DNA of 49,110 bases from an uncultured Spirochaeta sp. (lineage in GTDB: Bacteria; Spirochaetota; Spirochaetia; DTKZ01), in NCBI GenBank assembly GCA_937140905.1, contig CAKZQO010000321.1, forward strand, positions 1 through 49,110, written 5' to 3'. Position numbers and translations under genes: made by a program. Below are positions 2,012-45,113 of the stretch, piece after piece. Each line of letters begins with the position of its first letter. Position 1 is the stretch's first letter. The notes under the pieces are model-generated. The model was not told where the DNA came from, did no database searches, and worked only from the letters and a program-made list of their open reading frames with translations.

Positions 2012-2045
2012 TTGACAGAGCCCAAATCCTGTATATCATTGCCTT
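2012..2045 (+). promoter_or_regulatory. Promoter of the GntR/FCD gene, apparently leaderless
   Basis: TTGACA at 2012-2017, 16-bp spacer, TATCAT at 2034-2039, then 6 nt to the GTG start at 2046. The expected transcription start coincides with the start codon. No Shine-Dalgarno sequence precedes it. Confidence 0.65.
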
Positions 2046-2765
2046 GTGGGGTTGTCAATCGATAAAATAAAGAAATTGGAAAACCGTGATCGGATAAATC
2101 AGATCGTGGAATTCCTCCATTCGCTGATTTTAGACCAGGGGCTTGCGCCGGGCACCGAACTTCCTTCCGAGAAAGAGCTCGCCCAGCGCCTCGGGGTGAG
2201 CCGGTTCAGCCTACGGGAAGCTTTACGGATCGCGGAAACGCAAGGGTTGATCAAGATATCCCAGGGCAAACGCCCTACTGTCGCTACCCCCTCCTCCCAT
2301 ACCATCTCCAATATTCTTCGAATCGCCCTGAAAAGATCCACTAAAAACCTAATCGACCTCGCCATCGCCCGTGCGGGTTTGGAATGCAAGATTGTGCGCA
2401 TAGCAGCGGAAAAAATATCTTCTCAAGACTTGGCGGCATTGGAAGAAAATTTAAAGCTGATGGAGATTCCGAACCGTAAACTGGATTACTACGTTCAAAA
2501 AGATGTGGAATTTCACGAGATCATCCTGAGATCGACGGGTAGTATGGTGTTCGAAATCATGCTTTCCTCTGTCACCCCTCTCCTCTATGAATCCCGAACG
2601 CAAACTCTAGCCACTGGTGGGGTAGAGAGGGCTTTACAGTTACATCGGGAAATCTACGTTGCACTGAAGGATCATGATCCTGATAGAGCAGAGGAGAAGA
2701 TGGAACGTCACATGCAAAATGCAGTGGAAGATATCCTCGCCTCCCACCTACCTGAGGAGAGCTGA
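2046..2765 (+). CDS. GntR-family transcriptional regulator, FadR-type FCD domain
   Basis: A 239-residue one-component regulator. Residues about 10-85 form a winged helix-turn-helix (LPSEKELAQRLGVSRFSLRE), followed by an all-helical FCD ligand domain with metal-site residues such as DVEFHE and LQLHREIY and a late His in MERHMQN. FCD regulators usually bind carboxylated or sugar-acid ligands and repress adjacent catabolic genes. It is divergent from the FGGY kinase-dehydrogenase operon and very probably controls it. The start is GTG at 2046, with no ribosome site but a promoter placed for a leaderless transcript. TTG at 2052 is an alternative start, with GTGGGG too close to act as its SD. Confidence 0.93.
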   Translation: MGLSIDKIKKLENRDRINQIVEFLHSLILDQGLAPGTELPSEKELAQRLGVSRFSLREALRIAETQGLIKISQGKRPTVATPSSHTISNILRIALKRSTKNLIDLAIARAGLECKIVRIAAEKISSQDLAALEENLKLMEIPNRKLDYYVQKDVEFHEIILRSTGSMVFEIMLSSVTPLLYESRTQTLATGGVERALQLHREIYVALKDHDPDRAEEKMERHMQNAVEDILASHLPEES

Positions 2766-2816
2766 AGCACAATATAGTTCCTTTGAGGTGTTGCCTTTCA
2801 TGCGGACCCCCCGCTC

Positions 2817-3572
2817 CTATTCCAGAACCCGTACATAGAGGCAGGAAATATTGTCTACGCCTCCCACGTCCAGACCCGCCTTCAATAGATAGGGAACAGG
2901 ATTTTCCGGATACTGTATCAAGAGGTCCTCTATTCGACGATGGGAAACATAGTCATGTAGACCATCGCTGGTAAGGAGAAAGGCATCCCGTTCGGGTTGA
3001 ACAGAGGGAAGGACGCCCACGTCACAGTACACAGCTTCGCTACCGCCTCCAAAACAGTTAGCTAAAATATTGGGTGGGATCCGCTGGTCTCCCGAGAGTT
3101 CCCTCAAGGTATGATCCCTCGACACTTGACTGAGATTGTTATCTCGAAATCTATACAGACGAGTATCACCCACATGAACCCAGTACCAGGAACCTTGAAA
3201 GATCAGTACCCCGGTAAGAGTCGTACCCATGCCCGAAAGGGACGGATCCTTATATCCCATTCGGTGAAGGGTTTCCTGTGTTTTTTTTGTTAGTTCCCTG
3301 AATAGCCGTTCGATATCGCTAGGCGGCGTATCAGTTCGCAGAGCAGATAGCCCTTCCCGAAATACTTGTACGGCCACTTCACTAGCCACTTCACCCGCTG
3401 CTGCGCCCCCTAAACCATCTGCCACTGCAAAGAACAGCGGTGTTTCCGGACGTACCAATATCTCGTGCGCCGCCTCATCATCCCTAAGAGTGCGAAGGCC
3501 GGTAAAAACAAAATCCTCGTTTCTATCCCTTTTATAGCCCACGTGCGAGACGGACTGGATCTGTAACCTCAT
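2817..3572 (-). CDS. PP2C-family serine/threonine protein phosphatase
   Basis: A 251-residue stand-alone PPM/PP2C domain, about the usual size for bacterial Stp1/PrpC-like enzymes, which are Mn2+/Mg2+-dependent and remove phosphate from Ser/Thr residues. Seen in order: RDRNED (15-20), ADGLGG with metal-binding D52, SGMGTTLTG, GDTRLYRF, LTSDGLHDYV and a terminal GVDNISCLYVRV. All the usual acidic metal ligands appear present. No kinase partner lies beside it, so its targets are unknown. It sits between the two sugar modules, convergent to the GntR gene with only 51 nt between. The ATG has no SD but lies 7 nt after a -10 hexamer. Confidence 0.92.
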   Translation of the reverse strand: MRLQIQSVSHVGYKRDRNEDFVFTGLRTLRDDEAAHEILVRPETPLFFAVADGLGGAAAGEVASEVAVQVFREGLSALRTDTPPSDIERLFRELTKKTQETLHRMGYKDPSLSGMGTTLTGVLIFQGSWYWVHVGDTRLYRFRDNNLSQVSRDHTLRELSGDQRIPPNILANCFGGGSEAVYCDVGVLPSVQPERDAFLLTSDGLHDYVSHRRIEDLLIQYPENPVPYLLKAGLDVGGVDNISCLYVRVLE

Positions 3573-3579
3573 GGGGTCT

Positions 3580-3608
3580 AGTGTATTTCACCCGATTACA
3601 GCTTGCAA
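3580..3608 (-). promoter_or_regulatory. Promoter of the PP2C gene, apparently leaderless
   Basis: On the minus strand: TTGCAA at 3608-3603, 17-bp spacer, TACACT at 3585-3580, then 7 nt to the ATG at 3572. The upstream bases (AGACCCC) contain no ribosome site. Confidence 0.6.
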
Positions 3609-3622
3609 GGGGAAGGTAGAGT

Positions 3623-5634: not shown

Positions 5635-5653
5635 GTTCTTCCTCCAAATGTAA

Positions 5654-5682
5654 TATATCACATATCAGCTTATGTCATGCAA
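5654..5682 (-). promoter_or_regulatory. Putative promoter of the hydroxyacid dehydrogenase operon
   Basis: TTGCAT on the minus strand at 5682-5677, followed either at 17 bp by GATATA or at 19 bp by TATATT. The spacing is ambiguous. The transcript leader would be short but includes the GGAGG site. Confidence 0.4.
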
Positions 5683-5687
5683 GGGGT

Positions 5688-5700
5688 AATGTTCCACATT
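5688..5700. promoter_or_regulatory. AATGT-TCC-ACATT inverted repeat, candidate GntR/UTRA operator
   Basis: A perfect 5-3-5 inverted repeat just upstream of the -35 of the hydroxyacid dehydrogenase operon. Its core TGTTCnnCATT recurs at 6574-6584 over the -10 of the UTRA regulator gene itself. Two copies in one locus suggest a shared operator. Confidence 0.35.
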
Positions 5701-5774
5701 CAACTCCTAACGATCCTTTGGCCGGACAGATAGATCCAACCGTGGACAACCCCTTTTCCTAGTTCGTTTACTTC

Positions 5775-6572
5775 TTAAAAGGCCGACTTCCCCTTTTCCG
5801 GGGAGAGGAGGATCCGTTCCTGTAGGCGTTTCTCGTGCCGGTAAGGTCGGACTTGACAACGGAAGGCCAATCCATCGGGTCTATAGAGGGTTCGTTCGAA
5901 CCAGAGGGGCAGGGAGTTATCCACGTACCCTACGGCCGTGATGAGGAAAGCGGCTCTCCCCTGCTCCACTTCTAGTAACCTCGCTTCCTCTTCTCCTAGG
6001 GTGACCGCCTGGATCGTTTCCTCGGATCCGGTAATGTTCAACTTGTACTTCTGGATGAACAGTTCATAGAGGGACCCTTCCACATGTTCCCTTTCAAGAC
6101 CCGGACAAAACTGAACTCGCACGAACCTCCGTTCCAACACCATGGGGATGTTGTCGGCAAACCGAAGTCTCTTGAGTAGAAGAACCTCTTCTTCCCCTCC
6201 TAGTTCCAAAACCTCCGATACCTCGGCTTCCACTTCCTTACCCAGTAGACGCTTGAACTCTAACACCCTCGAGCTAGGAATCATCCCGGCGGCTTTCGTG
6301 TTAAGAGTGAAACTAGCGATAGAGGGAGTGGGATCCTCTTTCGGTTTAGAACGGACGAAGGTACCCACTCCCTTCTTGAACTGTAGAAGTCCTTCCGCTA
6401 CAAGACTGGATAGAGCTTTGTTAGCCGTTACCCTACTTACATTGTACAACTCACAGATCATGCGCTCCGTCATGAACTTGTCCCCTACCTTATACTTATC
6501 GGAGGCGATGAGTTCACGGAGTATCTTGTTTAGCTGTTGGTAGATAGGATCCGTTACCAGGCCCGTTGCCAT
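5775..6572 (-). CDS. GntR-family transcriptional regulator, HutC-type UTRA domain
   Basis: A 265-residue regulator with an N-terminal winged helix-turn-helix (about 8-75; MTERMICELYNVSRVTANKA) and a UTRA ligand domain (about 95-245) with the usual PMVLERRFVR and LPLWFERTLYR segments. UTRA members sense sugars, sugar phosphates or amino acids and mostly repress nearby operons. It lies inside the minus-strand module B cluster, 46 nt after the aldolase stop and upstream of the two dehydrogenases. It should respond to an intermediate of that pathway. It also has its own promoter ending 6 nt before the ATG, with a TGTTCnnCATT motif over the -10 that fits autoregulation. Confidence 0.93.
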   Translation of the reverse strand: MATGLVTDPIYQQLNKILRELIASDKYKVGDKFMTERMICELYNVSRVTANKALSSLVAEGLLQFKKGVGTFVRSKPKEDPTPSIASFTLNTKAAGMIPSSRVLEFKRLLGKEVEAEVSEVLELGGEEEVLLLKRLRFADNIPMVLERRFVRVQFCPGLEREHVEGSLYELFIQKYKLNITGSEETIQAVTLGEEEARLLEVEQGRAAFLITAVGYVDNSLPLWFERTLYRPDGLAFRCQVRPYRHEKRLQERILLSPEKGKSAF

Positions 6573-6573
6573 G

Positions 6574-6584
6574 TGTTCATCATT
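6574..6584. promoter_or_regulatory. TGTTCATCATT motif over the UTRA-regulator -10
   Basis: Shares 9 of 11 positions with TGTTCCACATT at 5690-5700. A second TGTTCA follows at 6588-6593, making a direct repeat. It could be an autoregulatory operator; this is inference from two copies only. Confidence 0.3.
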
Positions 6585-6607
6585 GCATGTTCACCCCTGC
6601 TTGTCAA
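6579..6607 (-). promoter_or_regulatory. Promoter of the GntR/UTRA gene, apparently leaderless
   Basis: Perfect TTGACA at 6607-6602 on the minus strand, 17-bp spacer, AATGAT at 6584-6579, then 6 nt to the ATG at 6572. Confidence 0.6.
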
Positions 6608-6618
6608 TTAAAGTGTTT

Positions 6619-7998: not shown

Positions 7999-8040
7999 AT
8001 TCTCCCCCTTCATTCCCTTATGACAATTGGCCTATACGTC

Positions 8041-8069: not shown

Positions 8070-8097
8070 ATATAGACCTGTTCGACCGCTCTGTCAA
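8069..8097 (-). promoter_or_regulatory. Promoter of the aldolase-led operon
   Basis: Minus strand: perfect TTGACA at 8097-8092, 17-bp spacer, TATATT at 8074-8069. This is a strong consensus match. The leader would be about 60 nt and carry the GTGGC/GCCAC palindrome near its 5' end. Confidence 0.65.
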
Positions 8098-8151
8098 GGT
8101 ATGGACGAAACATCGTTCCTATCGGTATAAACAAGTGAGAGAGGTGTTGGA

Positions 8152-12243: not shown

Positions 12244-14136
12244 TTAAAAGAATAAAAACAGAACTGGTGGCACCGCTCCCAACAGGTTCGCATAGATATT
12301 GGGAACTAACTGGAGAGCTCCAGCTATGAGGAGAAGTCCAGAACGAAGAATCCCTAGCTCTTTTCGCCAGTACTTCATAAGACCTGCGGAAAGAAAGACC
12401 GTAGCGGCACCTGTTCGAACCACTACCGAGAGGATCTCGATTAGCCCTCCTCGAAGAAGGAGGGCTTGATCATACACGAACACGAAAGGAACGAAGAAAG
12501 CTGCAAAGCAGAGCCGCATGGCCAGAAGGGCTGTTTTGAACCAATCGGATCCTGCCATCCCAGCCGCGATATACACAGCCCCACAGATGGGAGGAGTAAT
12601 GGCAGAAAGGATGGCAAAGTAGAACACGAAGAGGTGAGCCACTAGGGGAGGAAGACCGAAGTTCACCAACACAGGTCCGCCAATCACTACCGCCATGATG
12701 TACGCAGCGGTGGTAGGTACCTGCATCCCCAGTACGATACTGGTAAGAGCTATCAGTACCAGGGACAAGAAAAGCTTCCCCTGACTTACCGAAACAATGA
12801 AGGAACTAATCTTGACCCCCAATCCAGTTAGTGCGATTACGGCAATGATGATCTGAGCGCAGGCTGAAATGGAGGCGATGACTGCAGCTTGCCTCGCTCC
12901 ATCCAGAACAGCCTTCCTCATTTGCTGTAGAGCTTCTCGAAGGCTCCACCGCAGATCCTCGGTAAAAAAGGCGAACACCAATGTAACGAGACTCGCCCAA
13001 AAGGCTGCGTACTGGGGTGTGTATCCCGCCACCATCCAAGCAATAAGCACTCCAAAGGGGATTAAAAAGAACACACTGGACCGAACCGTTTCTCCCAACT
13101 GGGGCAATTCTCTCGCCGGAAGGCCTACATACCCTTTTCGCTTAGCGTAGAAATGGATTCCCACACCCACGGAAAGGAAGTAGAACAAAGCGGGTAATAA
13201 GGAACGAATGGCTACTTGAAGATAGGGAGTCTCGGTAAGTTCCGCTAACACGAAAGCGCCGGCACCCATGATGGGAGGCATGATCTGTCCTCCCGTACTG
13301 GCAGCTGCTTCTACTGCAGCAGCTACTTCGGGAGAGTACTTGAGACGTTTCATCATGGGTATGGTGAAAGCGCCGGTGGTAGCCACGTTGGCGCTGGCGC
13401 TCCCCGATATGGAACCAAACAACGCACTGGCTACTGTAGCTACTTTAGCGGGCCCTCCCGAGTATTTCCCGGCTAGCCAGATAGAAAGCCGCATGAATCC
13501 CGTGCCCCCACCGGTAGCGAACATAAAGGCCCCAAAAAAGACGAAAATGGCAATCACATCCGTACTGACCCCTACCAACAGTCCCCAGATCCCTCCGGTT
13601 GTGAGAAACAGTTGACCAGCAAGAGTGGGTAAATCGTATTGGGGATGGCCGAAAGTTCCCGGAATCAAATGTCCAAAAAGGGCATAGAGGAGAAAGAGGA
13701 AAGCTAAAACCGGTAGAGCAGGCTGAATTTCTCTACGGGTCGCCTCGATCACTAGGAGCAGGAACAGGAAAGCCAGCGCCGTTTGTCCCCAACCCGTAGG
13801 CACTCCATACTGTTCCGATATTCCTTCGGCAGATAGGAACACGTAGAAAGAGATTCCAACTCCAGATAAAAAGAGGAAGAGATCCCAGTAAAGAGACCTT
13901 TTCAGTGAAAAAGCCGTGCGTATAGTAACTGGAGCCCTTTGTTCTGTGTCTTTTGTGGATGCGCTATTCAGAACCTTTTTCAGCATCCCTCCCCCGAAGA
14001 TGATCCAGAACATGAACAGGAGGTGTATTGCCCTCGCTTGGAGAGCGGGAAGGAACGCATACACGGGAAGGAGAAGTTGAAAGAGAGCAAATAGGAGGGA
14101 CCCTATCAGGATCCCTACTTGTAGGATTCTTGCCAT
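12244..14136 (-). CDS. TRAP-TAXI transporter fused permease (DctQM-type)
   Basis: A 630-residue multi-spanning membrane protein. A small-subunit-like N-terminal part (about 1-120) is fused to a DctM-type large permease (about 120-540; GTGFMRLSIWLAGKYSGGPA and SASANVATTGAF are typical). A C-terminal block of further transmembrane helices follows, as in many TAXI fused permeases. It uses an ion gradient to import an organic acid or amino acid delivered by the binding protein, whose gene lies 39 nt upstream in the same operon. No clear SD precedes the ATG. A weak TTGATT-16-TATGAG lies 6 nt before it, so it could also have its own leaderless transcript. Confidence 0.93.
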   Translation of the reverse strand: MARILQVGILIGSLLFALFQLLLPVYAFLPALQARAIHLLFMFWIIFGGGMLKKVLNSASTKDTEQRAPVTIRTAFSLKRSLYWDLFLFLSGVGISFYVFLSAEGISEQYGVPTGWGQTALAFLFLLLVIEATRREIQPALPVLAFLFLLYALFGHLIPGTFGHPQYDLPTLAGQLFLTTGGIWGLLVGVSTDVIAIFVFFGAFMFATGGGTGFMRLSIWLAGKYSGGPAKVATVASALFGSISGSASANVATTGAFTIPMMKRLKYSPEVAAAVEAAASTGGQIMPPIMGAGAFVLAELTETPYLQVAIRSLLPALFYFLSVGVGIHFYAKRKGYVGLPARELPQLGETVRSSVFFLIPFGVLIAWMVAGYTPQYAAFWASLVTLVFAFFTEDLRWSLREALQQMRKAVLDGARQAAVIASISACAQIIIAVIALTGLGVKISSFIVSVSQGKLFLSLVLIALTSIVLGMQVPTTAAYIMAVVIGGPVLVNFGLPPLVAHLFVFYFAILSAITPPICGAVYIAAGMAGSDWFKTALLAMRLCFAAFFVPFVFVYDQALLLRGGLIEILSVVVRTGAATVFLSAGLMKYWRKELGILRSGLLLIAGALQLVPNIYANLLGAVPPVLFLFF

Positions 14137-14175
14137 AAAAGACTCATAAGCTCACAGTCGGAAAAATCAACACGC

Positions 14176-15117
14176 CTACTGTAGTGCTGATGCCACCTTG
14201 AATCCGATTTCCCGGTAGTAGCGAAGGGCTCCCGGATGTAACTTCGCTTCCATGAAGTTCACATCCTCCATCGTAATGAGTTTCATGGCAGGATGTACCG
14301 TTTCCCATTTGGATCGACTTTCCCAGAAGGTTTTTGTAAGCCTATACACTAATTCTTCCGGCAGGTTCTCCACAGCGTACAGAGCCACAGGTTCACTGAT
14401 GGTCTTCACTGGCGCATCTATGCCGGAATACATCCCCGCTGGAATCACCGCTCGAGCGTACTTTGTTTTAACCCGTTCATAGTCCTGATCGGAAAGTTCC
14501 AGCAAGCGGATAGGAACCGTGGCAGCGATCTCCTGGATCATCGATGCAGGAGGAGTGCTGGATGTGGCAAATCCCACTGCCCGCTTGTTTCGCACCGCTT
14601 GGACTCCCTCACTCAAGTCTACCCGCACGAGATCCACTTTATCGAGAATTCCCATAGCACCGAGAACATCCCGGGTAATTCGTTCACCCGCAGACCCTGC
14701 TCCGCCCGGCACGAACTTCTTGCCTGCTAAATCAGCCAGACTTTGTACCCCACTATCTTGTCGTACGACCCAGTGCATTACCAGACCCGGAATTGGCCAA
14801 AGGGAACGGATCCTTCCATATCCCCCTTCCTTGAACTGCTCTCCCCCTCCCAGGGCGGCCTTCACGAGTGAGGGCGGAGAGGTAAAGAGGTAATCGTTTC
14901 GGGTACGGGAGAGTTTCACGTTTTCCACAGAGCCCGCGCTCGTTTCCACTGTGATCTGAACTCCAGAAACTCCTTCCATCAACGCTTTTGCGATTCCCAC
15001 GGCAAAGGCGTAGTAGGTTGAAGTTTCCCGTGCCGACTTCAGAGCAATCTGGGTTTGCGCCGTCGCGAGACTAATGACAGAGAAAATGGTGATAAGTACC
15101 AAGAACGCTCGTTTCAT
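14176..15117 (-). CDS. TRAP-TAXI solute-binding protein
   Basis: 313 residues from the ATG at 15117, chosen because it exposes a standard signal peptide (MKRAFLVLITIFSVISLATA); the frame opens at 15171 but would bury it. The mature part shows TAXI-family features: LKSARETSTYYAFAVGIAKAL, TAGSVENVKL, and KFVPGGAGSAGERITRDVL. It captures the substrate in the periplasm for the fused permease encoded next. The AAAGG before the ATG is only 1-2 nt away. A six-codon ORF at 15134-15114 with a better SD overlaps the start (ATGA) and may couple translation. Confidence 0.9.
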   Translation of the reverse strand: MKRAFLVLITIFSVISLATAQTQIALKSARETSTYYAFAVGIAKALMEGVSGVQITVETSAGSVENVKLSRTRNDYLFTSPPSLVKAALGGGEQFKEGGYGRIRSLWPIPGLVMHWVVRQDSGVQSLADLAGKKFVPGGAGSAGERITRDVLGAMGILDKVDLVRVDLSEGVQAVRNKRAVGFATSSTPPASMIQEIAATVPIRLLELSDQDYERVKTKYARAVIPAGMYSGIDAPVKTISEPVALYAVENLPEELVYRLTKTFWESRSKWETVHPAMKLITMEDVNFMEAKLHPGALRYYREIGFKVASALQ

Positions 15118-15230
15118 ACCTTTGAAGTTTCCATGTTTCTTTTCCTCTGTCAAGGGGAATTGAACGACCAATGAGTCGGCCCAATAGGTCTACTCGGGAA
15201 TTAAGTCCATAGACGTTCAGCGTGCTTCTT

Positions 15231-15258
15231 AAAATATTTTGCTCCTTTTGGTTGACAA
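15231..15258 (-). promoter_or_regulatory. Putative promoter of the TRAP-TAXI operon
   Basis: Minus strand TTGTCA at 15258-15253, 16-bp spacer, TATTTT at 15236-15231, giving a leader of about 105 nt. Its -35 overlaps the -35 of the opposite promoter at 15252-15257. Confidence 0.4.
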
Positions 15259-15280
15259 CCTCTAGGGGGCGTATTTTAAT
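15252..15280 (+). promoter_or_regulatory. Promoter of the membrane protein/Nudix operon, apparently leaderless
   Basis: TTGACA at 15252-15257, 17-bp spacer, TTTAAT at 15275-15280, then 6 nt to the ATG at 15287. No SD is present (GGTTCC precedes the ATG). Confidence 0.6.
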
Positions 15281-15286
15281 GGTTCC

Positions 15287-15724
15287 ATGGAAAAGGAGCA
15301 TACTCTATCCGATAGGGAACGAGAATTACTGGAAGAGATCCAGGAGTTCAACCGGGAGCGGGATAGGATCCGAAAAGTAATCGGAGAAATCGGGGGTACT
15401 AGGTATTCCCGGAGGGATACCATTGTCAATGTCGCCTTCCTCACCGTCATTCTTCTCCTTTTTATCAGCGAAGTGTTGACTATGTGGCTTCCAACCTTCA
15501 TCTCCATCGAAGTCGGTATCCTTCTGGTATCCATCAAGATCATCTGGATGATTCACGCCCAGCAGAAGTACAACCACTTCGTCTTTTGGGTACTGAACTC
15601 GATCGAGTTCCGTCAAAACGATATGACGATGAAACTACGATCGATCGAAAAGAAGCTGGAATCCCTTTCCCTAGAACCGAAACATGTTTCTTCTGAGCCC
15701 CATATGGGAAACACCCCTCCATGA
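15287..15724 (+). CDS. Small membrane protein of unknown function
   Basis: 145 residues, family not recognised. A charged N-terminal helix (about 8-40, rich in Glu and Arg, likely coiled coil) leads into two hydrophobic segments (about 46-66 and 72-90), then a charged helix with IEKKLESLSLE and a short polar tail. The topology suggests both ends are cytoplasmic. It is the first gene of a two-gene operon and overlaps the Nudix start by 4 nt. Transcription is expected to start at the ATG itself. Confidence 0.7.
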   Translation: MEKEHTLSDRERELLEEIQEFNRERDRIRKVIGEIGGTRYSRRDTIVNVAFLTVILLLFISEVLTMWLPTFISIEVGILLVSIKIIWMIHAQQKYNHFVFWVLNSIEFRQNDMTMKLRSIEKKLESLSLEPKHVSSEPHMGNTPP

Positions 15725-17654: not shown

Positions 17655-17687
17655 AAGGACAGGGGGCTTCAAAAGCCCCTTGCCCTT
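17655..17687 (+). terminator. Hairpin terminator after the secreted protein gene
   Basis: GGGGCTT-CAA-AAGCCCC stem-loop at 17663-17679, extendable outward by AAGG/CCTT. The run of T after it is poor (TTGCCCTTATT), so termination may be partial. Confidence 0.5.
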
Positions 17688-17709
17688 ATTGCCATAAAAT
17701 CACTATCCT
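17680..17709 (+). promoter_or_regulatory. Promoter of ridA, apparently leaderless
   Basis: TTGCCC at 17680-17685, 18-bp spacer, TATCCT at 17704-17709, then 6 nt to the ATG at 17716. The -35 overlaps the 3' flank of the terminator hairpin. Confidence 0.45.
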
Positions 17710-17715
17710 TAATCC

Positions 17716-18096
17716 ATGAAAAAACAAGTGATCCATACGGACAAGGCTCCCAAGGCTATCGGCCCTTATTCTCAGGCCGTTCGGTTCGGGCATCTTCTGT
17801 TCATCTCTGGGCAGTTGGGAATAGACCCGGCTTCCGGGAACTTAGTAAACGGCGGATTCGAAGCAGAGGCCCGTCAAGTATTAGCGAATATTCAAGCCAT
17901 CTTGGAAAGTCAGAAATCTGGAATGGATAAGATCCTAAAAACTACCGTTTTTCTTACGAACATGGAGGACTTCGCCGTTCTCAATGGGATCTACGGCACC
18001 TTCATTCCTGAACCGTACCCTGCCCGAAGCACGATCCAGGTAGCAGCCCTGCCCAAAGGGGCTCGGATCGAAATGGAAGTGATCGCCGAAGTGTAA
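17716..18096 (+). CDS. ridA: RidA/YjgF reactive enamine/imine deaminase
   Basis: 126 residues, the standard length. Seen: KAIGPYSQAV, LFISGQLGIDP, the FVEI-type DFAVLNGIYGTF, the conserved Arg in YPARSTIQVAALPKGARIEMEVIA, and the closing Glu. RidA hydrolyses reactive 2-aminoacrylate and related enamines made by PLP enzymes, protecting the cell; it forms cytosolic trimers. It is monocistronic, converging on the GNAT-kinase gene 44 nt away. No SD precedes the ATG, and the -10 ends 6 nt upstream. Confidence 0.95.
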   Translation: MKKQVIHTDKAPKAIGPYSQAVRFGHLLFISGQLGIDPASGNLVNGGFEAEARQVLANIQAILESQKSGMDKILKTTVFLTNMEDFAVLNGIYGTFIPEPYPARSTIQVAALPKGARIEMEVIAEV

Positions 18097-18140: not shown

Positions 18141-20186
18141 TCAATCTGAGGAAAGCCCTCCTACCCATTCTTCCTCCACACACACGAGGCACCGTTCCAA
18201 TTCTGAATCCTGCGTATCTGCCAATTCTCCTAAAGTAAGGGTGATATAGGTGTTCAGGTCCAAGGGTCCCTGCACAAAGGTACTGGCGTAGAAACCCAGC
18301 CGCTTCTCCCGCTTAACACCCATCCGGATCAACGTTTTCGCACCTTCCCGTACAAGGGTGACTTTTCCTAGAGCGTCCTCTTCCCCTAGAACCGACCATA
18401 CCCCTAACATGAGGGGACGTTTGGGATCGCTCACGTCACCGGAGAACTCTCCCCGTAAGAGTTCTTCTCGACTCTTCTTTAGATAGGGAACGAAATCAAG
18501 GTGCTCAGCTAGCTTCCGATCGGTAGCCATGAATCGTCCCGTTGCGGGATCCATCGTAAAGATCACTGTTCGGTCTGTGGCTTGTCCATAACTTTTGAAG
18601 AGGATCCCCCCATACTCTGCTAGAGGCGCATGGTTCTCTAGATACTCCTGATCATCTCTCACCCGAACCGCCATATCGAACAACCAGTCTCGGAACTCGG
18701 TATGCTCCGTCCTGAGAGAGTCCACATATTCCCGTAACCCTTCTGCTACCATGTATCCTTGTTGGAAAGAGAGGAAGGTTCGAAAAATCTCTCTGATGTT
18801 GTGGTACCGGGAAAAATGAAGGATCAAATCCCAGAGAAACACCTCCATTTTTCGAAGCCGCCAGATAAAAGAACCCAGAACACTTCGGCTCGGAACCGCA
18901 TTCCGATCCAGTTGCTCCGTAAGCTCCGTGAACTCCCGGTACCGGAGTTCGTATTCTTGCAGGAAGGACGAATCCCCTTTGGGCTTCTTGGGCAAACGGA
19001 TCCTCCATCGGGTACCTTTCCCCACCCGGCTTTCCACCCGAATGTTCTCCTTCCCGAAAACGGCAAAAATCTGCCGGGTCCCAATTCCTTGCCCCTGAGA
19101 AGGCAATTTTGGGGAAACCGTCCTATGACCTGCATGAAATCCGAAAGATTGTTTTGATTCCCCAAACGGCATCCTTGGCTCTGATGGAAAAGTTCGGGTC
19201 TTCGTAGTCCGACCCACAAACATAGGGAGTCCGTCTTCTCTCAAAGTCAACCGTTCCGGTTCGATCCCTACTCCATTGTCCATAAACGTAAGGAGGATAT
19301 GATCCTTCTCTTCCTTCAATTCAATGGTAATTCTTCCTCTCCTGCCTGCCTCCTTGATAGCATCCAATGCATTGGAAGCTAAGTTGATCAACGCCCGCCC
19401 AAAATCCACATAAGGCCCATAAGCTTCGGGAATCCGCCCCTTCACTATGAGATGCACGTCACAGGGTATGGGAGACAACTCGATGAAGGGAAGAATCCGC
19501 TCGAGGAGCAGGGTTTTAATGTTAACCTCATGATACCGCTCTACAGAATCCCGGTAGGCGTTCAGCATGTTGATGAGGGCGGTGGTTTCCCGATTGATGT
19601 CTTCGATGATTTTGTGACAATTATCTACCGATAAACGGTCTACCATGTCGGAGAGAAGTCGAATCGTTTTCCGCGCGTCATGCCGGGTTTTCCCCAACTC
19701 TTCCGCAAAGGAAGAGGTCGACTCTTCGACTCCTTCCGCATCCTTCAGGTCAGAAGCTCTACAGACCATATGGATGAACACCAGACCCCGATACACGATT
19801 CGATCCAATACTGTAAAGCCTTTTTTCGCAAAAAAGAGAACCGCCTCCTGCTGTTTTTCCCAAATGTAGAGGTATAGGAGAGCATCTGAGCGAACTTCGG
19901 AGGCTAGCCGGCGAATGAAAGCCGACCCTATGCCTTTCCCCCGCCCGAAGGGGCTTGTTACCTGCTTGTATAGGTGAAATCGGGTACGTTCTGGATTGGA
20001 GTACACCAATAAGTATCCAAGGATTTCCCCCTCCTCCTCCCAAACGTAGCTGTGCTCATAGTCCTTTTCCAGTGCTTCATCCTTTATATAGGGGGATGGG
20101 ATGATGAAGGTGTCGATGTTCAACGAATGATTACGCTGGATCCGTTCTTCCAGAGCTGGGGTTAGCTTCTGAATGAAATCTATCAT
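18141..20186 (-). CDS. GNAT acetyltransferase-histidine kinase fusion
   Basis: 681 residues. Residues about 1-145 form a GNAT fold, with the acetyl-CoA loop FGRGKGIGSAFI (R82-G87) and a VLFFAKKGF strand. Next comes a dimerisation helix with TRHDARKTI (H169, of the RHD-type H box), then a GHKL ATPase with N-box NLASNALDAI (268-277), DNGVGI (303-308) and GQGIGTRQIF (365-374). The ATPase has a 35-residue Ser/Pro/His-rich insert before the second Gly box. Residues 410-681 match nothing I recognise. There are no transmembrane helices, so it is probably cytosolic. A small molecule or acetyl-CoA may gate kinase activity. No adjacent response regulator. The start ATG has no SD. Confidence 0.85.
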   Translation of the reverse strand: MIDFIQKLTPALEERIQRNHSLNIDTFIIPSPYIKDEALEKDYEHSYVWEEEGEILGYLLVYSNPERTRFHLYKQVTSPFGRGKGIGSAFIRRLASEVRSDALLYLYIWEKQQEAVLFFAKKGFTVLDRIVYRGLVFIHMVCRASDLKDAEGVEESTSSFAEELGKTRHDARKTIRLLSDMVDRLSVDNCHKIIEDINRETTALINMLNAYRDSVERYHEVNIKTLLLERILPFIELSPIPCDVHLIVKGRIPEAYGPYVDFGRALINLASNALDAIKEAGRRGRITIELKEEKDHILLTFMDNGVGIEPERLTLREDGLPMFVGRTTKTRTFPSEPRMPFGESKQSFGFHAGHRTVSPKLPSQGQGIGTRQIFAVFGKENIRVESRVGKGTRWRIRLPKKPKGDSSFLQEYELRYREFTELTEQLDRNAVPSRSVLGSFIWRLRKMEVFLWDLILHFSRYHNIREIFRTFLSFQQGYMVAEGLREYVDSLRTEHTEFRDWLFDMAVRVRDDQEYLENHAPLAEYGGILFKSYGQATDRTVIFTMDPATGRFMATDRKLAEHLDFVPYLKKSREELLRGEFSGDVSDPKRPLMLGVWSVLGEEDALGKVTLVREGAKTLIRMGVKREKRLGFYASTFVQGPLDLNTYITLTLGELADTQDSELERCLVCVEEEWVGGLSSD

Positions 20187-20217
20187 GCCTATAGGGAATA
20201 TACCGAATATTACCTAA

Positions 20218-20646
20218 TTAAAAAAGAAGGTGAACCTTCAAGCCAGGAAACCTTAAAAAATCTCTGTCCCCGGTAACTATTGTAGCATCAAATTCCAGCG
20301 CAAGAGCTGCTAGATGAGCATCGCTTACCAGATTGCCGGCTGTTCCCGACAGAAGAAGCAAGTGCCGGAGTATGCTTCGGTGAGATTTCCCTGGATTCAG
20401 TAAAAAAGTGGTAGGTTGATTAAGTAAGGCATCTAGCCATGAGATAGCTTGTTCAACCGTTAAAGGAGTATTAAACAATCGTCTCGAGGTGGTAAGACGG
20501 ATAAACCCTAAGTACACGGCCCACGGCAATCCTACTTCCTTTTCTTCTTTATTTAGAATCTCCTCTAACCACGCACTTGCCTTTCTATGATGCACGGAAG
20601 ATCGATCCACTGCGTATAGGAGGATGTTCAAGTCGGGAATAATCAT
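20218..20646 (-). CDS. vapC: PIN-domain toxin, VapC family
   Basis: 142 residues of PIN-type ribonuclease. Seen: N-terminal strand with D5 (IIPDLNILLY), a central helix with PWAVYLGFIRLTTS, the conserved VSDAHLAALALE Asp, and TGDRDFLRFPGL near the end. This pattern fits the mycobacterial-type VapC subgroup. VapC toxins cut tRNA or rRNA when released from the antitoxin. It overlaps the antitoxin stop by 4 nt (ATGA), as in most VapBC operons. Confidence 0.9.
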   Translation of the reverse strand: MIIPDLNILLYAVDRSSVHHRKASAWLEEILNKEEKEVGLPWAVYLGFIRLTTSRRLFNTPLTVEQAISWLDALLNQPTTFLLNPGKSHRSILRHLLLLSGTAGNLVSDAHLAALALEFDATIVTGDRDFLRFPGLKVHLLF

Positions 20647-20906
20647 TTTTGTAAATCCAATTTTTCAGATACTGCCTCTTCCTCTAAGTGGTCTATCATT
20701 TCCCAAGCTCTTTCATACCTGTAGGAGGTAGGCCCTAACTCATAGGATATGCATTTCCATCTTTTTCTATTCTTCCGGCTAGAGGTTTTTTTAAGAGCCT
20801 CCGATAGAAGAGAATTGATTAGTTCCTTCAGTGTTTTCTTTTCTTGAACAGACTTGAACCGTAATTCTTGCATTAAATCATCACTTATATCGATCGTTGT
20901 ACGCAT
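20643..20906 (-). CDS. vapB: VapB-type antitoxin, ribbon-helix-helix
   Basis: 87 residues. MRTTIDISDDLMQELRFKS followed by a second helix (KTLKELINSLLSEAL) is a MetJ/Arc-type DNA-binding fold. The basic C-terminal half (KKTSSRKNRKRW onward) would wrap the PIN toxin. It precedes and overlaps vapC, so it is made first and represses the shared promoter. Apparently leaderless: TATTAT ends 6 nt before the ATG. Confidence 0.88.
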   Translation of the reverse strand: MRTTIDISDDLMQELRFKSVQEKKTLKELINSLLSEALKKTSSRKNRKRWKCISYELGPTSYRYERAWEMIDHLEEEAVSEKLDLQK

Positions 20907-20912
20907 AAAAGC

Positions 20913-20941
20913 ATAATAGATGGATATTCATTCGACGTCAA
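20913..20941 (-). promoter_or_regulatory. Promoter of vapBC, leaderless layout
   Basis: Minus strand TTGACG at 20941-20936, 17-bp spacer, TATTAT at 20918-20913, then 6 nt (GCTTTT) to the ATG at 20906. This is one of the best examples of the pattern in the window. Confidence 0.65.
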
Positions 20942-27994: not shown

Positions 27995-27995
27995 C

Positions 27996-32506: not shown

Positions 32507-32557
32507 TGCGGGTAGATCCTGAGGGCATATACCTATTCATTATTTAGGTATTGTTAG

Positions 32558-32563
32558 TATACT
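32558..32563 (+). promoter_or_regulatory. -10 element of the chemoreceptor gene, leaderless layout
   Basis: TATACT ends 6 nt before the ATG at 32570. No good -35 is visible 17 bp upstream (ATTCAT), so an alternative sigma factor or activator is possible. Confidence 0.45.
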
Positions 32564-32569
32564 ATCCCA

Positions 32570-34705
32570 ATGCTGAACACAAGTCTAAGGTACAAAATGT
32601 TGGCCCTACTCTTGGGGCCTGTAGTGCTCATTTCCATTATAGTGGCCTTTGTATCGTATATTCAGATACGGAATACCGTGGAACCAATTATTTTCAACCT
32701 TTCTCAAGAGGTAGCCAATCGGGGCGCCGACGTGGTGGATCAATGGCTCATCGGGCTTATTCGGGAAGTCCGAGCCCAAGCAGAACGGAATATCACTCGA
32801 ACGATGCAATGGGATGCCATCAAAGAAGACTTTATGGAACGCTTACGGGAACGACCCGATTTCGAAATGTTCTTCATCGCTTATCCCGATGGATCTTCGC
32901 CTAATGTGTACAGGAAAGAACAGGGTGCAGACATCGTTTCTGGTCCCACTGCAAATGTTTCGGATCGAACCTACTTCCGGGCCATATTCCAGGACAACGA
33001 ACCCTACGATATCAGCAACCCCGTGATTTCCAAAGCAACGGGGCAGAAGATCTTCGTCATCGCGTATGGAGTGAAAGACAATCAGGGCAGAAAAGTAGGG
33101 ATTTTCGGAGGCACCGTTCTTCTAGACACCATCAGCAAAATTGCCGGAGACATCAAAATCGGAAAAAATGGGTACGGTTGGATCGTGGATGGTTCTGGAC
33201 AGGTGATAGCCCATCCCAATCAAGATATGGTACTGAAACTGAACGTCCTGGATTCCAGCAAGGTAGGGTTCAAGGGTCTAGAGGAAGCAGGGAAACTAAT
33301 GCTTGCCAAGAAACCTGGTACTGCTCGGATCACCCGACCGGATGGGGAGGCAGAACAGTTATTTTTTGCCCCCATTCTTAGTTCCCCGGGATGGGTGCTA
33401 GGGGTAGCCGTGCCTATCTCGCAACTATTGGAACGGGTATTCTACCTACTGCGAACCGTCATCATCGTGTTTTCTGCCCTTATGGTTATGATTGCCCTTC
33501 TTGTCCTTTGGGTGAGCAACCTCATCGTTCGTCCCATCCAGCAAACGGCGCTGATTGCTAAAGACCTAGCCGAAGGGGCAGGAGATCTCACCATTCGTCT
33601 AGGTGTGCACACGCAGGACGAATTGGGAGAAATGGGGCAACGGTTCAACACCTTCCTCGATCACCTCGAAAGTCTCGTCAAAAGTATCCGAGAAGCGGTA
33701 CGAAAATTGAAACAGATCGGAGAAGATCTGGCCAGCAATATGACAGAGACGAGCGCTGCGGTTACGGAAATCGCAGCCAATATCGAATCGGTGAAGAATC
33801 AGGTAGTGAATCAGTCTTCCAGCGTAACCGAGACTCTCGCTACCGTTGAGCAGATCAATCGTAACATTGAATCCTTCAACCATCTCATTGCTAGCCAAGC
33901 GGCCAGCATTACCCAGGCTTCCTCCGCCATCGAGGAGATGGTAGCCAACATCCGTTCCGTGCACTCCACGGTCGAGCGTAACAAGGAGAACATCGAACAT
34001 CTTCTATCTGCCTCTGGAGTGGGGAAAGAACGTCTACAGGGAATGGTAGAGTTCGTGCAGAAGATCTCCGCAGCTTCGGAAGGGATGATTGAAGCCAACC
34101 GGGTGATCATGAACATTGCCCAGCAGACGAACCTCCTGTCTATGAATGCCGCGATCGAAGCGGCTCATGCGGGAGCCGCAGGAGCGGGTTTTTCCGTGGT
34201 GGCCCAAGAAATCCGAAAGTTGGCCGAAAACGCGGGAGAACAGGCAAAATCTATCTCTCGAGTACTGAACGAGGTGCGGAAACTCATTGCCGAAGCGGTT
34301 TCCTATGCCCAGGACGCAGAATCAAAGTACGAAGAAGTCTTAGGAGGAGTCCAGAAGGTTCGGGACCAGGAATTAGAAATTCGAAACGCGATGGAAGAAC
34401 AGAGCGCGGGAAGTTCTCAGGTTCTTCAGGCCATTCAACAGATAAACGAGATTACTTCGGAGATCAAGAATGGCTCCAACGAGATCCTCCTTGGGAGTAA
34501 AGCTATCCTAGAGGAAATGCATCGCCTTTCGGATATTACCCGGCAGATCAACCAGAGCGCCCAAGAAATGGCCGCCGGAGCTTCCCAGATCAATACCGCA
34601 GTTGTCCATGTGAGGGACGAAAGTCAGATAAGTAGAGATACTATCGAATCTGTGGATGCTCTGGTAGGGAGGTTCAAGGTTCGGGAAGGAAAGGAGGCTT
34701 CCTAA
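32570..34705 (+). CDS. Methyl-accepting chemotaxis protein
   Basis: 711 residues. An N-terminal transmembrane helix (about 10-33), a periplasmic Cache-type sensor (about 35-280; VSDRTYFRAIFQDNEPYDIS and GKNGYGWIVDGSG are typical of dCache), a second helix (about 290-312), HAMP (about 313-365) and a long signalling coiled coil. The hairpin tip is plain: NIAQQTNLLSMNAAIEAAHA and GFSVVAQEIRKLAE. It senses a small ligand outside the membrane and signals to CheA/CheW. No CheW pentapeptide tail is obvious. No SD; the -10 ends 6 nt before the ATG. Confidence 0.94.
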   Translation: MLNTSLRYKMLALLLGPVVLISIIVAFVSYIQIRNTVEPIIFNLSQEVANRGADVVDQWLIGLIREVRAQAERNITRTMQWDAIKEDFMERLRERPDFEMFFIAYPDGSSPNVYRKEQGADIVSGPTANVSDRTYFRAIFQDNEPYDISNPVISKATGQKIFVIAYGVKDNQGRKVGIFGGTVLLDTISKIAGDIKIGKNGYGWIVDGSGQVIAHPNQDMVLKLNVLDSSKVGFKGLEEAGKLMLAKKPGTARITRPDGEAEQLFFAPILSSPGWVLGVAVPISQLLERVFYLLRTVIIVFSALMVMIALLVLWVSNLIVRPIQQTALIAKDLAEGAGDLTIRLGVHTQDELGEMGQRFNTFLDHLESLVKSIREAVRKLKQIGEDLASNMTETSAAVTEIAANIESVKNQVVNQSSSVTETLATVEQINRNIESFNHLIASQAASITQASSAIEEMVANIRSVHSTVERNKENIEHLLSASGVGKERLQGMVEFVQKISAASEGMIEANRVIMNIAQQTNLLSMNAAIEAAHAGAAGAGFSVVAQEIRKLAENAGEQAKSISRVLNEVRKLIAEAVSYAQDAESKYEEVLGGVQKVRDQELEIRNAMEEQSAGSSQVLQAIQQINEITSEIKNGSNEILLGSKAILEEMHRLSDITRQINQSAQEMAAGASQINTAVVHVRDESQISRDTIESVDALVGRFKVREGKEAS

Positions 34706-34727
34706 AGCTTCCCCGATCCTGTACAAT
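34699..34727 (+). promoter_or_regulatory. Weak promoter candidate for purK
   Basis: TTCCTA at 34699-34704, 17-bp spacer, TACAAT at 34722-34727, with the ATG at 34738. A transcript would have only about 4 nt of leader; no SD is present. Low confidence because of the poor -35. Confidence 0.3.
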
Positions 34728-34737
34728 AGAGCATCCC

Positions 34738-35916
34738 ATGAATACACCCATTTCAGGCAATCTGCCTCGTGCCATAGGAATCATCGGAGGGGGGCAGTTG
34801 GGTCGTATGTTGATCTACTGTTCCTGTAAGCTAGGATTCCAGTACGTGGTGTTAGACCCTGATCCTTTCGCCTCTGCCAAACCTTTAGCCAACCACTTCA
34901 TTCAAGGGAGCCTGTACGATCCTGTCTCCTTACGCAAACTTCTAGAGCATTCTGATCTAGCTACCTATGAAATTGAGCATATCGACACGAAGACCCTACG
35001 GGAAGCAGAGGATGCGGGGTATCAGCTCTACCCTTCCCCACGCCTTCTGGAAACGATCCAGGACAAGTTGGTACAGAAAGAGGTCCTATCCAAAGCCGGG
35101 GTACCGATGCCTCGGTTCTTCCGGTTCGATGGAACCGGTAAAGATCCGGGGAACACTCTCTTAAGTCTTACCCAATCCAATGGGATCTCCTACCCCCTGG
35201 TACAGAAGAGCCGTAAGGGCGGGTACGATGGGAGAGGAGTAAAAGTCCTTAGATCTCCCGCTGATCCCCTCACGGACGTCCCATCGATCATAGAGGAGTA
35301 TATACCCTTCCAGAAAGAGCTGGCAGTTATCGTGGCTAGAGACCGGGAGGGAAATACAGCCCTCTACCCCGTGGTGGAGATGGTGTTCAATCCCGATCAC
35401 AACATCTGTGACACTGTCCTTGCTCCCGCCCGCGTTCCATCCGATGTAACAAATGAAGCCTATAGGGTAGCTCGCCTGGCCGTGGAGGCTTTAGAAGGGG
35501 TAGGGGTGTTTGGGGTCGAACTTTTTTTAACCTCCGAAGGAAAGGTACTTTTAAATGAGGTAGCTCCCCGGCCTCACAACTCCGGGCATTACACCATCGA
35601 AGCTTGCCTTACCTCCCAGTTCGAACAACACATCCGAGCTATCACGGGCCTACCCTTAGGAGCGACTGACCTGATTCGGCCCGCGATAATGCTCAACTTG
35701 TTAGGAGAATCAGATGCACTAGGCGTTCCGTTCGTGGAAGGATTCAAGGAAGCCTTATCCATACCAGGGGTTTCCATCCATCTGTATGGGAAACGGGAAG
35801 TCCGACCCTTTCGCAAGATGGGGCACGTCACGATTCTGGGAACCACAACCGAAGAAGTCCTTCGGAAAGCGGAACAGATTCGAGGTATACTTAAGGTGAG
35901 GAGTGTTGAAACGTAA
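34738..35916 (+). CDS. purK: N5-carboxyaminoimidazole ribonucleotide synthase
   Basis: 392 residues of ATP-grasp enzyme that carboxylates AIR to N5-CAIR in purine synthesis. Seen: IGIIGGGQLGRMLIY, LATYEIEHIDTKTL (family VxTxExExV-like), LVQKSRKGGYDGRGVKVL, PSIIEEYIPFQKELAVIV and GVFGVELFLT...VNEVAPRPHNSGHYTIEA-type ending. It is paired with purE 6 nt downstream, together performing AIR to CAIR. Confidence 0.96.
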   Translation: MNTPISGNLPRAIGIIGGGQLGRMLIYCSCKLGFQYVVLDPDPFASAKPLANHFIQGSLYDPVSLRKLLEHSDLATYEIEHIDTKTLREAEDAGYQLYPSPRLLETIQDKLVQKEVLSKAGVPMPRFFRFDGTGKDPGNTLLSLTQSNGISYPLVQKSRKGGYDGRGVKVLRSPADPLTDVPSIIEEYIPFQKELAVIVARDREGNTALYPVVEMVFNPDHNICDTVLAPARVPSDVTNEAYRVARLAVEALEGVGVFGVELFLTSEGKVLLNEVAPRPHNSGHYTIEACLTSQFEQHIRAITGLPLGATDLIRPAIMLNLLGESDALGVPFVEGFKEALSIPGVSIHLYGKREVRPFRKMGHVTILGTTTEEVLRKAEQIRGILKVRSVET

Positions 35917-40003: not shown

Positions 40004-40077
40004 AAGCCTAGATCCCTGGAGTAGACATGTCAACAAGAACGAATCTTGTTTGACGCGTGCTTATTTTTCGAACCATC

Positions 40078-40104
40078 AAGCGCCCTCTAGAGGGCGCTTT
40101 TTTT
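40078..40104 (+). terminator. Strong intrinsic terminator
   Basis: A perfect 22-nt palindrome (AAGCGCCCTCTAGAGGGCGCTT, 40078-40099) runs into seven T residues (40098-40104). It ends transcription of the outer-membrane protein gene and insulates the next promoter, 18 bp on. Confidence 0.93.
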
Positions 40105-40121
40105 GTTCCCTTGTTCTCCAG

Positions 40122-40150
40122 TTGACAGCCTTACCTCGCAAACCGATACT
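40122..40150 (+). promoter_or_regulatory. Promoter of the binding lipoprotein/kinase operon, leaderless layout
   Basis: Perfect TTGACA at 40122-40127, 17-bp spacer, GATACT at 40145-40150, then 7 nt to the ATG at 40158. No SD (TTTTAGT). Confidence 0.6.
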
Positions 40151-40157
40151 TTTTAGT

Positions 40158-41324
40158 ATGAACAAAGCTCTGACTGAGCGAACCTCAAGTTCGATTGGAT
40201 TCTACTCTACCATCCTTATCATTGTAGGAATCATCGCTTTTCTACTTGCCTCTTGTAACCAAAAAACGGATTATTCAATAGGGTTTTCTACCTCTCTCAC
40301 GGGGAGAGGAGCGAGCCTTGGAAAAGATCTATACGAAGGGACCCTCTTGGCAGTTGAAGAAATAAACCAAGAGGAAGGTCCGTTTCGGATTAAACTAATC
40401 GTTCGAGACGATGGGGGGGACAAAGGAAGAGCGTTGGCCAACGCGAAAGAGTTCGCGGAAATGGGTATTGAAGTCGTTATGGGGTACGCGACTAGCGCTA
40501 TAGCGGATGCCGTACTCCCTTTCCTCACCGAAAAGAAGATTGTGTTGTTGGGTGCATCCATCTCCTCGCCGATCTTCGATAAGAAGGATGATTTCTTGTT
40601 CCGAGTCGTCAACTCTTCCACATCTGAAGCCATAGCGGTTGCGGATCATATCATCGAAACCATTGGTCCAAAAGTATTTGTGGGGATCTTCGATCAAGGG
40701 AATGCGGCCTATGCAGAGGCCTGGGCCAAAACGTTCCGAAACCGCTACCAGGTTCGGGGAGGAGTCGTTTCCCTTATTCTTCCGTTCCTGACCCGAACTC
40801 CTCCTCCGTATCAGGAAGTGATCGATGATGCCCTGCAAAAAGAACCAAGCGCCACAGGGATATGCGTGGTGGCTAGTTCGATCGACACAGCCGGATTCGC
40901 CCAAGCTTTTAAACAACGGGTGCCGAATGGAATCATCGCGGTAAGTGGTTGGGGAAACAACCTGGATCTCATCACCTATGGAGGCAAGGCCGTAGAGGGG
41001 GCTATTATCGCTCAATCCCACAATCCTCTCGACTCTTCTCCCAGGTTCCTCCGGTTCAAGTCTAAATTCCAGGAAGCTTTCGGCCGGATTCCACCCTTTG
41101 GAGCGGTTCACGCGTACGAAACAGTAAAATACCTTGAAACTGCTCTTCGGCAGCGGAAAACCGGAGAACCATTGAAAGAAGCATTGAAACGGATCAAGGA
41201 AGTACAAGGAGTCCAACGAAAGATCCGTTTTGACGAAACAGGAGACGCGTACCGCCCCTTGTTCATTCTAACCGTACGGGAAGGAGTTTTTACCTTGATC
41301 TCGGAGAGGGAGCCAGAGTGCTGA
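40158..41324 (+). CDS. Periplasmic-binding lipoprotein (Leu/Ile/Val-binding type)
   Basis: 388 residues from the ATG at 40158; the frame opens at 40050 but that would span the terminator. A hydrophobic segment and lipobox LLASC put the lipidated Cys at residue 33. The mature part is a type I periplasmic-binding fold (SIGFSTSLTGRGASLGKDLY, GTLLAVEEINQE, IRDDGGDK-like LIVRDDGGDKGRALANAKEF, VMGYATSAIADAVLPFL). No ABC permease or ATPase gene follows. Instead it overlaps a histidine kinase gene, so it is likely a ligand sensor feeding that kinase. Confidence 0.9.
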   Translation: MNKALTERTSSSIGFYSTILIIVGIIAFLLASCNQKTDYSIGFSTSLTGRGASLGKDLYEGTLLAVEEINQEEGPFRIKLIVRDDGGDKGRALANAKEFAEMGIEVVMGYATSAIADAVLPFLTEKKIVLLGASISSPIFDKKDDFLFRVVNSSTSEAIAVADHIIETIGPKVFVGIFDQGNAAYAEAWAKTFRNRYQVRGGVVSLILPFLTRTPPPYQEVIDDALQKEPSATGICVVASSIDTAGFAQAFKQRVPNGIIAVSGWGNNLDLITYGGKAVEGAIIAQSHNPLDSSPRFLRFKSKFQEAFGRIPPFGAVHAYETVKYLETALRQRKTGEPLKEALKRIKEVQGVQRKIRFDETGDAYRPLFILTVREGVFTLISEREPEC

Positions 41325-43897: not shown

Positions 43898-45077
43898 TGA
43901 ACATGGCGGCTACATAACACAGTCCCATCGCCCAGAAGACGCTACTCAACCCAAACCGGTCAGCCAGCCACCCGGAAAACGCGGCTGCCACAGAACCGAT
44001 TCCAAAGGTCATAAAAAACATGAATCCATACCCTACCCCCTGTCGTCTCTTTGGAAGGATACGAGCAACGATGGTGTTTTGCATGGGTTGAATGGCAAAA
44101 CTGAAAAAGCCAAAACCTACCGCCCCCAACAGCAGAGGAATACCACGGGTGAAGGCCATCAATAGGATACTGGCGGCAGAGATCAGAAGGGTGATAATGT
44201 ACAACTGTTGAGGTCGATACCTATCAACTAGAGCTCCCGCGATATATTGCCCAGCCGCTCCTGCGATGAGGGTGACCGTGGCAAAGATTCCCCCGACCCG
44301 CACCGGATCCAAGCCCTTGAGCACTTGGGAAAACTCCCTCCCCAGATAGGTAGGCAAAAAGGTCAATACTCCCCGGTTCCCCATTCCCCCCAGAGCGCAA
44401 GAGAGGTAAAAGAGCACGAGGGAAGTAGTGATGATCCCTTTTCGTTGGGAAGAGAGTGTTTCCGTTGAGGGAATAGCTCCCTGATCTTCGTTAGGATCCT
44501 TAGGCTCCTTCCGCTCAATAGGTTCCATCCGATAGGAAGGAAGGGAAAGAGCGAAGAAGCCTACGATCAATACACCGATTCCAAACAGGATGTAGGGTGA
44601 TTTCCACCCCCACCTAGCCCCTAAGAAAGCCGCCACGAAGGGTACGGTAGAGGTTCCGAGACTGCCGGCAATCCCATTGACCCCAAAAGCCTTTCCCCTT
44701 TCTTTGATTCCCAGACTGATGATGGTATTGGCAGCCGGATGGTAGAAACTACCTAGGATACCGAGAAATCCCATTAGGATAGCAAAGGGAAAGAGTTTCC
44801 GCACGAACAATACCGAGATACAAAGGATCCCCGCACCAAAGAGGTAGAGAACCAAAAGTCGGGTAGGTCCCACCCGATCAGCCAACGCTCCAGAGGGAAA
44901 CGCCCCCAATCCAAAGGTATAGGAAAAGACCGACATCACCATTCCTAGGTGAAAATAATCGGTACCAAACACCCCTAACAGAAGGGGTATGAGAGGGGGG
45001 AGCGCTCCTTCTATGAGATGCACCAAGGTATGAGCCGCGCTAACCACCGCGAGAGTCTTACGATCCTGGGTATCCAT
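43854..45077 (-). CDS. Major facilitator superfamily transporter
   Basis: 407 residues from the ATG at 45077, preferred because a -10 element ends 7 nt before it; GTG 45113 and ATG 45086 in the same frame are alternatives. About 12 transmembrane helices are seen with the loop 2-3 motif GALADRVGPTRLL (MFS motif A) and its C-terminal repeat GALVDRYRPQQLY. A central charged loop (RKEPKDPNEDQG) divides the halves. The substrate is unknown; the pattern resembles fosmidomycin-resistance/sugar-type MFS antiporters. Its 3' end overlaps the histidine kinase gene. Confidence 0.88.
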   Translation of the reverse strand: MDTQDRKTLAVVSAAHTLVHLIEGALPPLIPLLLGVFGTDYFHLGMVMSVFSYTFGLGAFPSGALADRVGPTRLLVLYLFGAGILCISVLFVRKLFPFAILMGFLGILGSFYHPAANTIISLGIKERGKAFGVNGIAGSLGTSTVPFVAAFLGARWGWKSPYILFGIGVLIVGFFALSLPSYRMEPIERKEPKDPNEDQGAIPSTETLSSQRKGIITTSLVLFYLSCALGGMGNRGVLTFLPTYLGREFSQVLKGLDPVRVGGIFATVTLIAGAAGQYIAGALVDRYRPQQLYIITLLISAASILLMAFTRGIPLLLGAVGFGFFSFAIQPMQNTIVARILPKRRQGVGYGFMFFMTFGIGSVAAAFSGWLADRFGLSSVFWAMGLCYVAAMFTMYGAELQARKPQG

Positions 45078-45084
45078 ACCTGGC

Positions 45085-45113
45085 ATAGTAACAAGTTTTA
45101 CTCCGCTTGACAC
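45085..45113 (-). promoter_or_regulatory. Promoter of the MFS gene, leaderless layout
   Basis: Minus strand GTGTCA at 45113-45108, 17-bp spacer, TACTAT at 45090-45085, then 7 nt to the ATG at 45077. The -35 shares bases with the opposite aconitase -35. Confidence 0.45.

Follow-up and report, generated by a model that had tools for sequence, protein, structure and literature searches.

Promoters abutting the start codon suggest leaderless initiation alongside Shine-Dalgarno-led initiation in an uncultured spirochaete

Why do some genes of this spirochaete lack a Shine-Dalgarno (SD) sequence and carry instead a promoter that ends a few nucleotides before the start codon? The window, i.e. the whole stretch of 49,110 nucleotides that was analysed, is the complete contig C321 of a Spirochaetota draft genome of 3.57 Mb in 324 contigs. 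The RpoB of the host is nearest to that of the Spirochaetaceae MAG T3Sed10_257 (82%), followed by those of other Spirochaetaceae and Treponema MAGs, which makes the host an uncultured representative of Spirochaetota. The first-pass annotation had listed nine SD-less genes of the window with a -10 hexamer 6-7 nt before the start codon and three more with leaders of about 4 nt. Re-examination of these start regions gave the following features:

2012..2048, + strand: GntR/FCD regulator, predicted leaderless; TTGACA (2012-2017), 16-bp spacer, TATCAT (2034-2039), 6 nt, GTG at 2046
3570..3608, - strand: promoter of a PP2C phosphatase; TTGCAA, 17-bp spacer, TACACT (3580-3585), 7 nt, ATG at 3572
6570..6607, - strand: candidate promoter of a GntR/UTRA regulator; TTGACA (6607-6602), AATGAT (6584-6579), 6 nt, ATG at 6572
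15252..15289, + strand: 145-aa protein with no match to a family, candidate promoter; TTGACA (15252-15257), 17-bp spacer, TTTAAT (15275-15280), 6 nt, ATG at 15287
17680..17718, + strand: ridA, predicted leaderless; TTGCCC, 18-bp spacer, TATCCT (17704-17709), 6 nt, ATG at 17716
20184..20202, - strand: sensor-like protein, candidate very short leader; TATATT (20202-20197), ATG at 20186
20904..20941, - strand: small antitoxin-like gene (vapB), predicted leaderless; TTGACG (20941-20936), 17-bp spacer, TATTAT (20918-20913), 6 nt, ATG at 20906
32555..32572, + strand: chemoreceptor, predicted leaderless from its -10; TATACT (32558-32563), 6 nt, ATG at 32570
34722..34740, + strand: purK, predicted very short leader of ~3-4 nt; TACAAT (34722-34727), ATG at 34738
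40122..40160, + strand: promoter of a substrate-binding lipoprotein; TTGACA (40122-40127), ATG at 40158
45075..45112, - strand: MFS transporter, predicted leaderless; TGTCAA, 16-bp spacer, TACTAT (45090-45085), 7 nt, ATG at 45077

The coordinates of the nine -10 hexamers were right, and seven of the nine hexamers are TANNNT with a gap of 5-7 nt to the start codon, but two are imperfect and one is ambiguous. The candidate at 6572 is weaker, its AATGAT lacking the first T and hence not being TANNNT, and the TTTAAT of 15287 matches TATAAT at five of six positions and is not TANNNT either; each of the two is nevertheless paired with a perfect TTGACA at -35. The -10 of 40158 can be read as GATACT (17-bp spacer, 7-nt gap) or as TACTTT (19-bp spacer, 5-nt gap). 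The -35 elements were found as reported, with TTGACA at 2012, 6607 (-), 15252 and 40122 and TTGACG at 20941 (-). At the chemoreceptor, TATACT overlaps TAGTAT and TACTAT and a clear -35 is absent; upstream of 3572 the SD scorer flagged a chance GGTGA just before the -10. The remaining gene, given a start at 29162 in the first-pass annotation, was called at 28991 by our coding-score caller. Two neighbourhoods are of separate interest: 20218-20906 holds a VapBC-like toxin-antitoxin pair, in which the small first gene, predicted to be leaderless, overlaps a PIN-domain gene by 4 nt, and in 12244-15171 a DctM-like membrane protein adjoins an NMT1-like solute receptor, as in transporters of the TRAP-TAXI type.

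A sharp peak in the distance from TANNNT to the start codon, confined to SD-less genes, had been put forward as the check on this reading. We called genes in contig stretches that together with the window span 1.26 Mb, about 1/3 of the genome, using a hexamer coding model that placed each start by its coding score and start codon and took no account of upstream sequence; the caller reproduced the genes of the window. Among 1078 genes with readable starts, 560 were first genes, i.e. preceded by 40 nt or more of intergenic sequence or by a contig end, and 518 were operonic. First genes were scored as SD-less (274) if their complementarity to the anti-SD did not exceed 3 nt and as SD-led (286) if it reached 4 nt or more. 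TANNNT at -12, which leaves a gap of 6 nt, was found in 46 of the 274 SD-less first genes versus 6.8±2.6 across 200 dinucleotide shuffles, the highest of which gave 18, whereas SD-led first genes showed no peak (4/286 vs 5.3 expected) and operonic genes no excess (7/518 vs 6.9). The peak recurred in contigs picked without a GntR hit (30 vs 3.9), and in the window alone TANNNT lay at -13 to -11 in 6 of 12 SD-less first genes versus 0.064 expected per gene (P = 4e-5). Flanking positions were raised as well, with 25 hexamers at -13, 16 at -14, 20 at -15 and 14 at -11 against a background of 5.8. Summed over -16 to -10 the excess above background amounts to ~98 genes, which corresponds to ~9% of the whole gene set and ~18% of first genes. 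SD motifs of the GGAGG type are common at gene starts of this genome. The peak is thus sharp and confined to the SD-less class, and the pattern is real in this spirochaete, in which about one gene in 11 appears to be leaderless or nearly so. Together with the orthologue comparison described below, the distance test bears out the proposal of a mixed genome in which SD-led and leaderless genes stand side by side.

TANNNT is a loose pattern, with a background of 2.1% per position, and the genes at 6572 and 15287 were admitted with relaxed hexamers. Even so, that the hexamers arose by accident in AT-rich upstream regions of SD-less genes deserves almost no credence: the dinucleotide shuffles, the register between -35 and -10, the conservation among orthologues and the spacing controls in 198 genomes refute chance for the class as a whole. 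Individual members may nevertheless be fortuitous, since chance alone should supply about 6 of the 46 hexamers at -12.

The composition of the elements reveals their nature. At the three free positions of the hexamer, genes of the -12 class had T in 54%, A in 52% and A or C in 76%, compared with 34%, 28% and 56% in the background, i.e. the middle bases lean to TAA or TAC and hence towards TATAAT. Moreover, the peak of TTG fell precisely on -35 relative to the start codon (16/46 genes; 6 and 3 at the adjacent positions). Because the hexamer bases lean to TATAAT and TTG peaks at -35, we concluded that the signal is a promoter, more than AT-richness. As in sigma-70-type promoters, a TTGACA-like -35 lies 16-18 bp upstream of a TATAAT-like -10. 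A pyrimidine at -1 was considered as an initiator signature and dropped, the difference (74% vs 59%, P = 0.07) being a trend only. It might be argued that transcription starts further upstream and that the hexamers act as operators or as secondary promoters, since some upstream regions contain inverted repeats, e.g. the one preceding an FCD regulator gene of contig C116 (L126:3564-4265). This we regard as very unlikely, given that the paired -35 and -10 elements keep one fixed register to the ATG and that SD-less genes bearing the signal would in that case possess leaders but no SD. Some 50 bases upstream of this FCD regulator gene (L126, 3564-4265, - strand), palindromic motifs of the GCTATA type recur between TTGACA and the ATG and are probably an autoregulatory operator.

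Taken as a whole, the register of these promoters makes it highly probable that two modes of initiation coexist in this spirochaete, one led by SD sequences and the other driven by leaderless sigma-70-type promoters that abut the start codon. At some 9% of genes, or 18% of those following an intergenic gap, the -10 ends 6-7 nt before the start codon, so that RNA polymerase would begin at the A of the ATG or 1-3 nt from it. The resulting SD-less mRNA would be translated in the manner described for other leaderless mRNAs, the ribosome and initiator tRNA recognising its 5'-terminal AUG directly. GGAGG-type sites serve downstream operon genes and most other genes. How far the polymerase starts from the ATG bears on a possible, though doubtful, variant in which the majority of these genes carry a leader of 1-5 nt, not zero, and initiation takes place on a near-terminal AUG. 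The excess of TANNNT at -13 to -15 besides -12 speaks for it, as does the purK hexamer, held at -15/-16 across two genera; against it, the mode falls sharply at -12, which with the usual 6-nt spacing places +1 on the A of the ATG, and the GntR and RidA orthologues hold the exact -12 register. The shoulder at -13 to -15 may reflect a part of the class with leaders of 1-3 nt or with a longer distance from -10 to start site.

The start codons themselves could be misplaced, the true starts lying downstream behind leaders of their own and the -10 elements belonging to ordinary promoters. The gene at 2046 does open with GTG, TTG and GTG codons follow in the same frame, and the shift from 29162 to 28991 by the coding-score caller points the same way. 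We consider this explanation very improbable, as the start codon is ATG in 42 of the 46 genes of the -12 class, the alignments of RidA, MFS and PurK with their orthologues begin with the first residue on a shared ATG, and SD-led genes are without such a register.

Conservation was followed for four genes, encoding the GntR regulator at 2046, RidA, PurK and the MFS transporter. At the GntR gene, TTGACA and the TATCAT at -12 are retained in G001 and G002 while the spacer diverges. RidA keeps TATNNT at exactly -12 in G001-G003, which belong to the same genus, and in G004, a member of another genus (69% identity), although the remaining upstream sequence differs; in the distant genomes G014 and G039 the hexamer at -12 is TATTAT or TATAAT, and in most other genomes of the class RidA has a GGAG-type SD instead. 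Upstream of PurK (34738), TANNNT lies at -16/-15 in all family members in which the region is covered (G001, G002, G005, G006 and G007), a register retained across two genera down to about 55-57% identity. The MFS gene (45077) retains the register -13/-12 in G001-G003 with diverged flanks, whereas in G004 of the sister genus its TTGACA promoter is followed by a GGAGG-bearing leader (L270, compared with L267-L269 and L271). Given that the -10 register is conserved and that the MFS gene is SD-led in G004, we concluded that the leaderless arrangement is maintained and at times gives way to an SD leader. Orthologues that use different modes, such as those of the MFS gene, offer natural material on the advantages of each mode.

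The first-pass annotation had further described the leaderless set as rich in regulators and in single genes rather than operons. Neither description was supported as worded. Leaderless-like and SD-led first genes stand at the head of operons equally often (29/69 vs 107/262, P = 0.89), and 62% of the former, compared with 41% of the latter, are divergent from their neighbour. A Pfam scan of 79 leaderless-like and 79 SD-led proteins showed, among the top 25 families, a weak trend towards regulators, and of 10 FCD/GntR first genes about 3 have no leader or a short one, which is near the genome rate; enrichment is therefore unproven.

Promoters immediately before the ATG, beside SD-led genes, are likewise found in Deinococcus and Mycobacterium tuberculosis, in which a larger share of genes is leaderless and the -35 is less conserved than in the host. 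The numbers of leaderless mRNAs, as cited in PMC5243855, are 1174 for Deinococcus and 505 for M. tuberculosis. Such a mixed system had been called noteworthy here, leaderless mRNA being listed for Actinobacteria, Deinococcus-Thermus and archaea, yet spirochaetes had already been implicated. Zheng et al. 2011 (PMC3160421) recognised bacterial leaderless genes by a TANNNT ~12 bp upstream and predicted them in 6 of 18 Spirochaetes genomes, at a mean of 3.9% (range 1.8-6.9%); transcription genes were over-represented in their data pooled over all genomes with leaderless genes. Our genes resemble these TA-led genes of the same phylum in having TANNNT ~12 bp before the start, in lacking an SD and in being first rather than operon-internal genes; the share in the host is somewhat higher (~9%), but it is a different estimate. 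In Leptospira interrogans, dRNA-seq placed a start site at most 10 nt from the start codon in 430-450 genes and exactly on it in 170-184 (Zhukova et al. 2017, PMC5243855). The same mixed system thus exists in the same phylum, with starts measured there and inferred from register here, and whereas an E. coli-like promoter motif was not found in Leptospira, the leaderless set of the host has clear TTGACA/TATAAT-type elements. In the literature searched, no leaderless transcripts had been mapped for Treponema or Borrelia. With the mixed system already known, the host adds another lineage, one in which the sigma-70-type elements are clear and footprints are seen among orthologues; it is a good confirmation and not a new kind of biology, and a reason for gene finders to model leaderless starts in spirochaetes.

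The arrangement recurs beyond the host. In 198 genomes of the class, TTGACA-N16-18-TANNNT-N6-ATG occurred 2221 times compared with 540 times for a control with N12 in place of N6, a ratio of 4.1, and N6 exceeded N12 in 180 of the 198 genomes. The N6 pattern is also present in genomes of other classes of the phylum, the N12 control covering the one class only. Exact matches numbered 0-5 in named genomes from other phyla, a contrast that is not firm as G+C content and promoter consensus differ. On balance we lean towards mixed leaderless and SD-led initiation being a general and probably old trait of Spirochaetota and no peculiarity of Leptospira, in which single genes would have switched mode by gaining or losing an SD-bearing leader; the mode differences of the MFS gene in G004 and of RidA across the class are the cases in point.

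One genome and one genus stood out. G161, of family f42 in the same class (L256-L266), has 72 exact matches, more than twice those of the next genome in the class sample, and in a 112-kb sample of it the -12 peak comprised 10 of 33 SD-less first genes versus a background of 0.76; G161 seems to rely heavily on leaderless genes. In genus g100 of the same phylum (G241, G230, G304 and others), many members have 20-43 exact matches per genome and AT-rich promoter regions, and G241 carries recurrent near-identical promoters (TTGACAAATAAAATTATTCTGTTATAATATTCTTATG).
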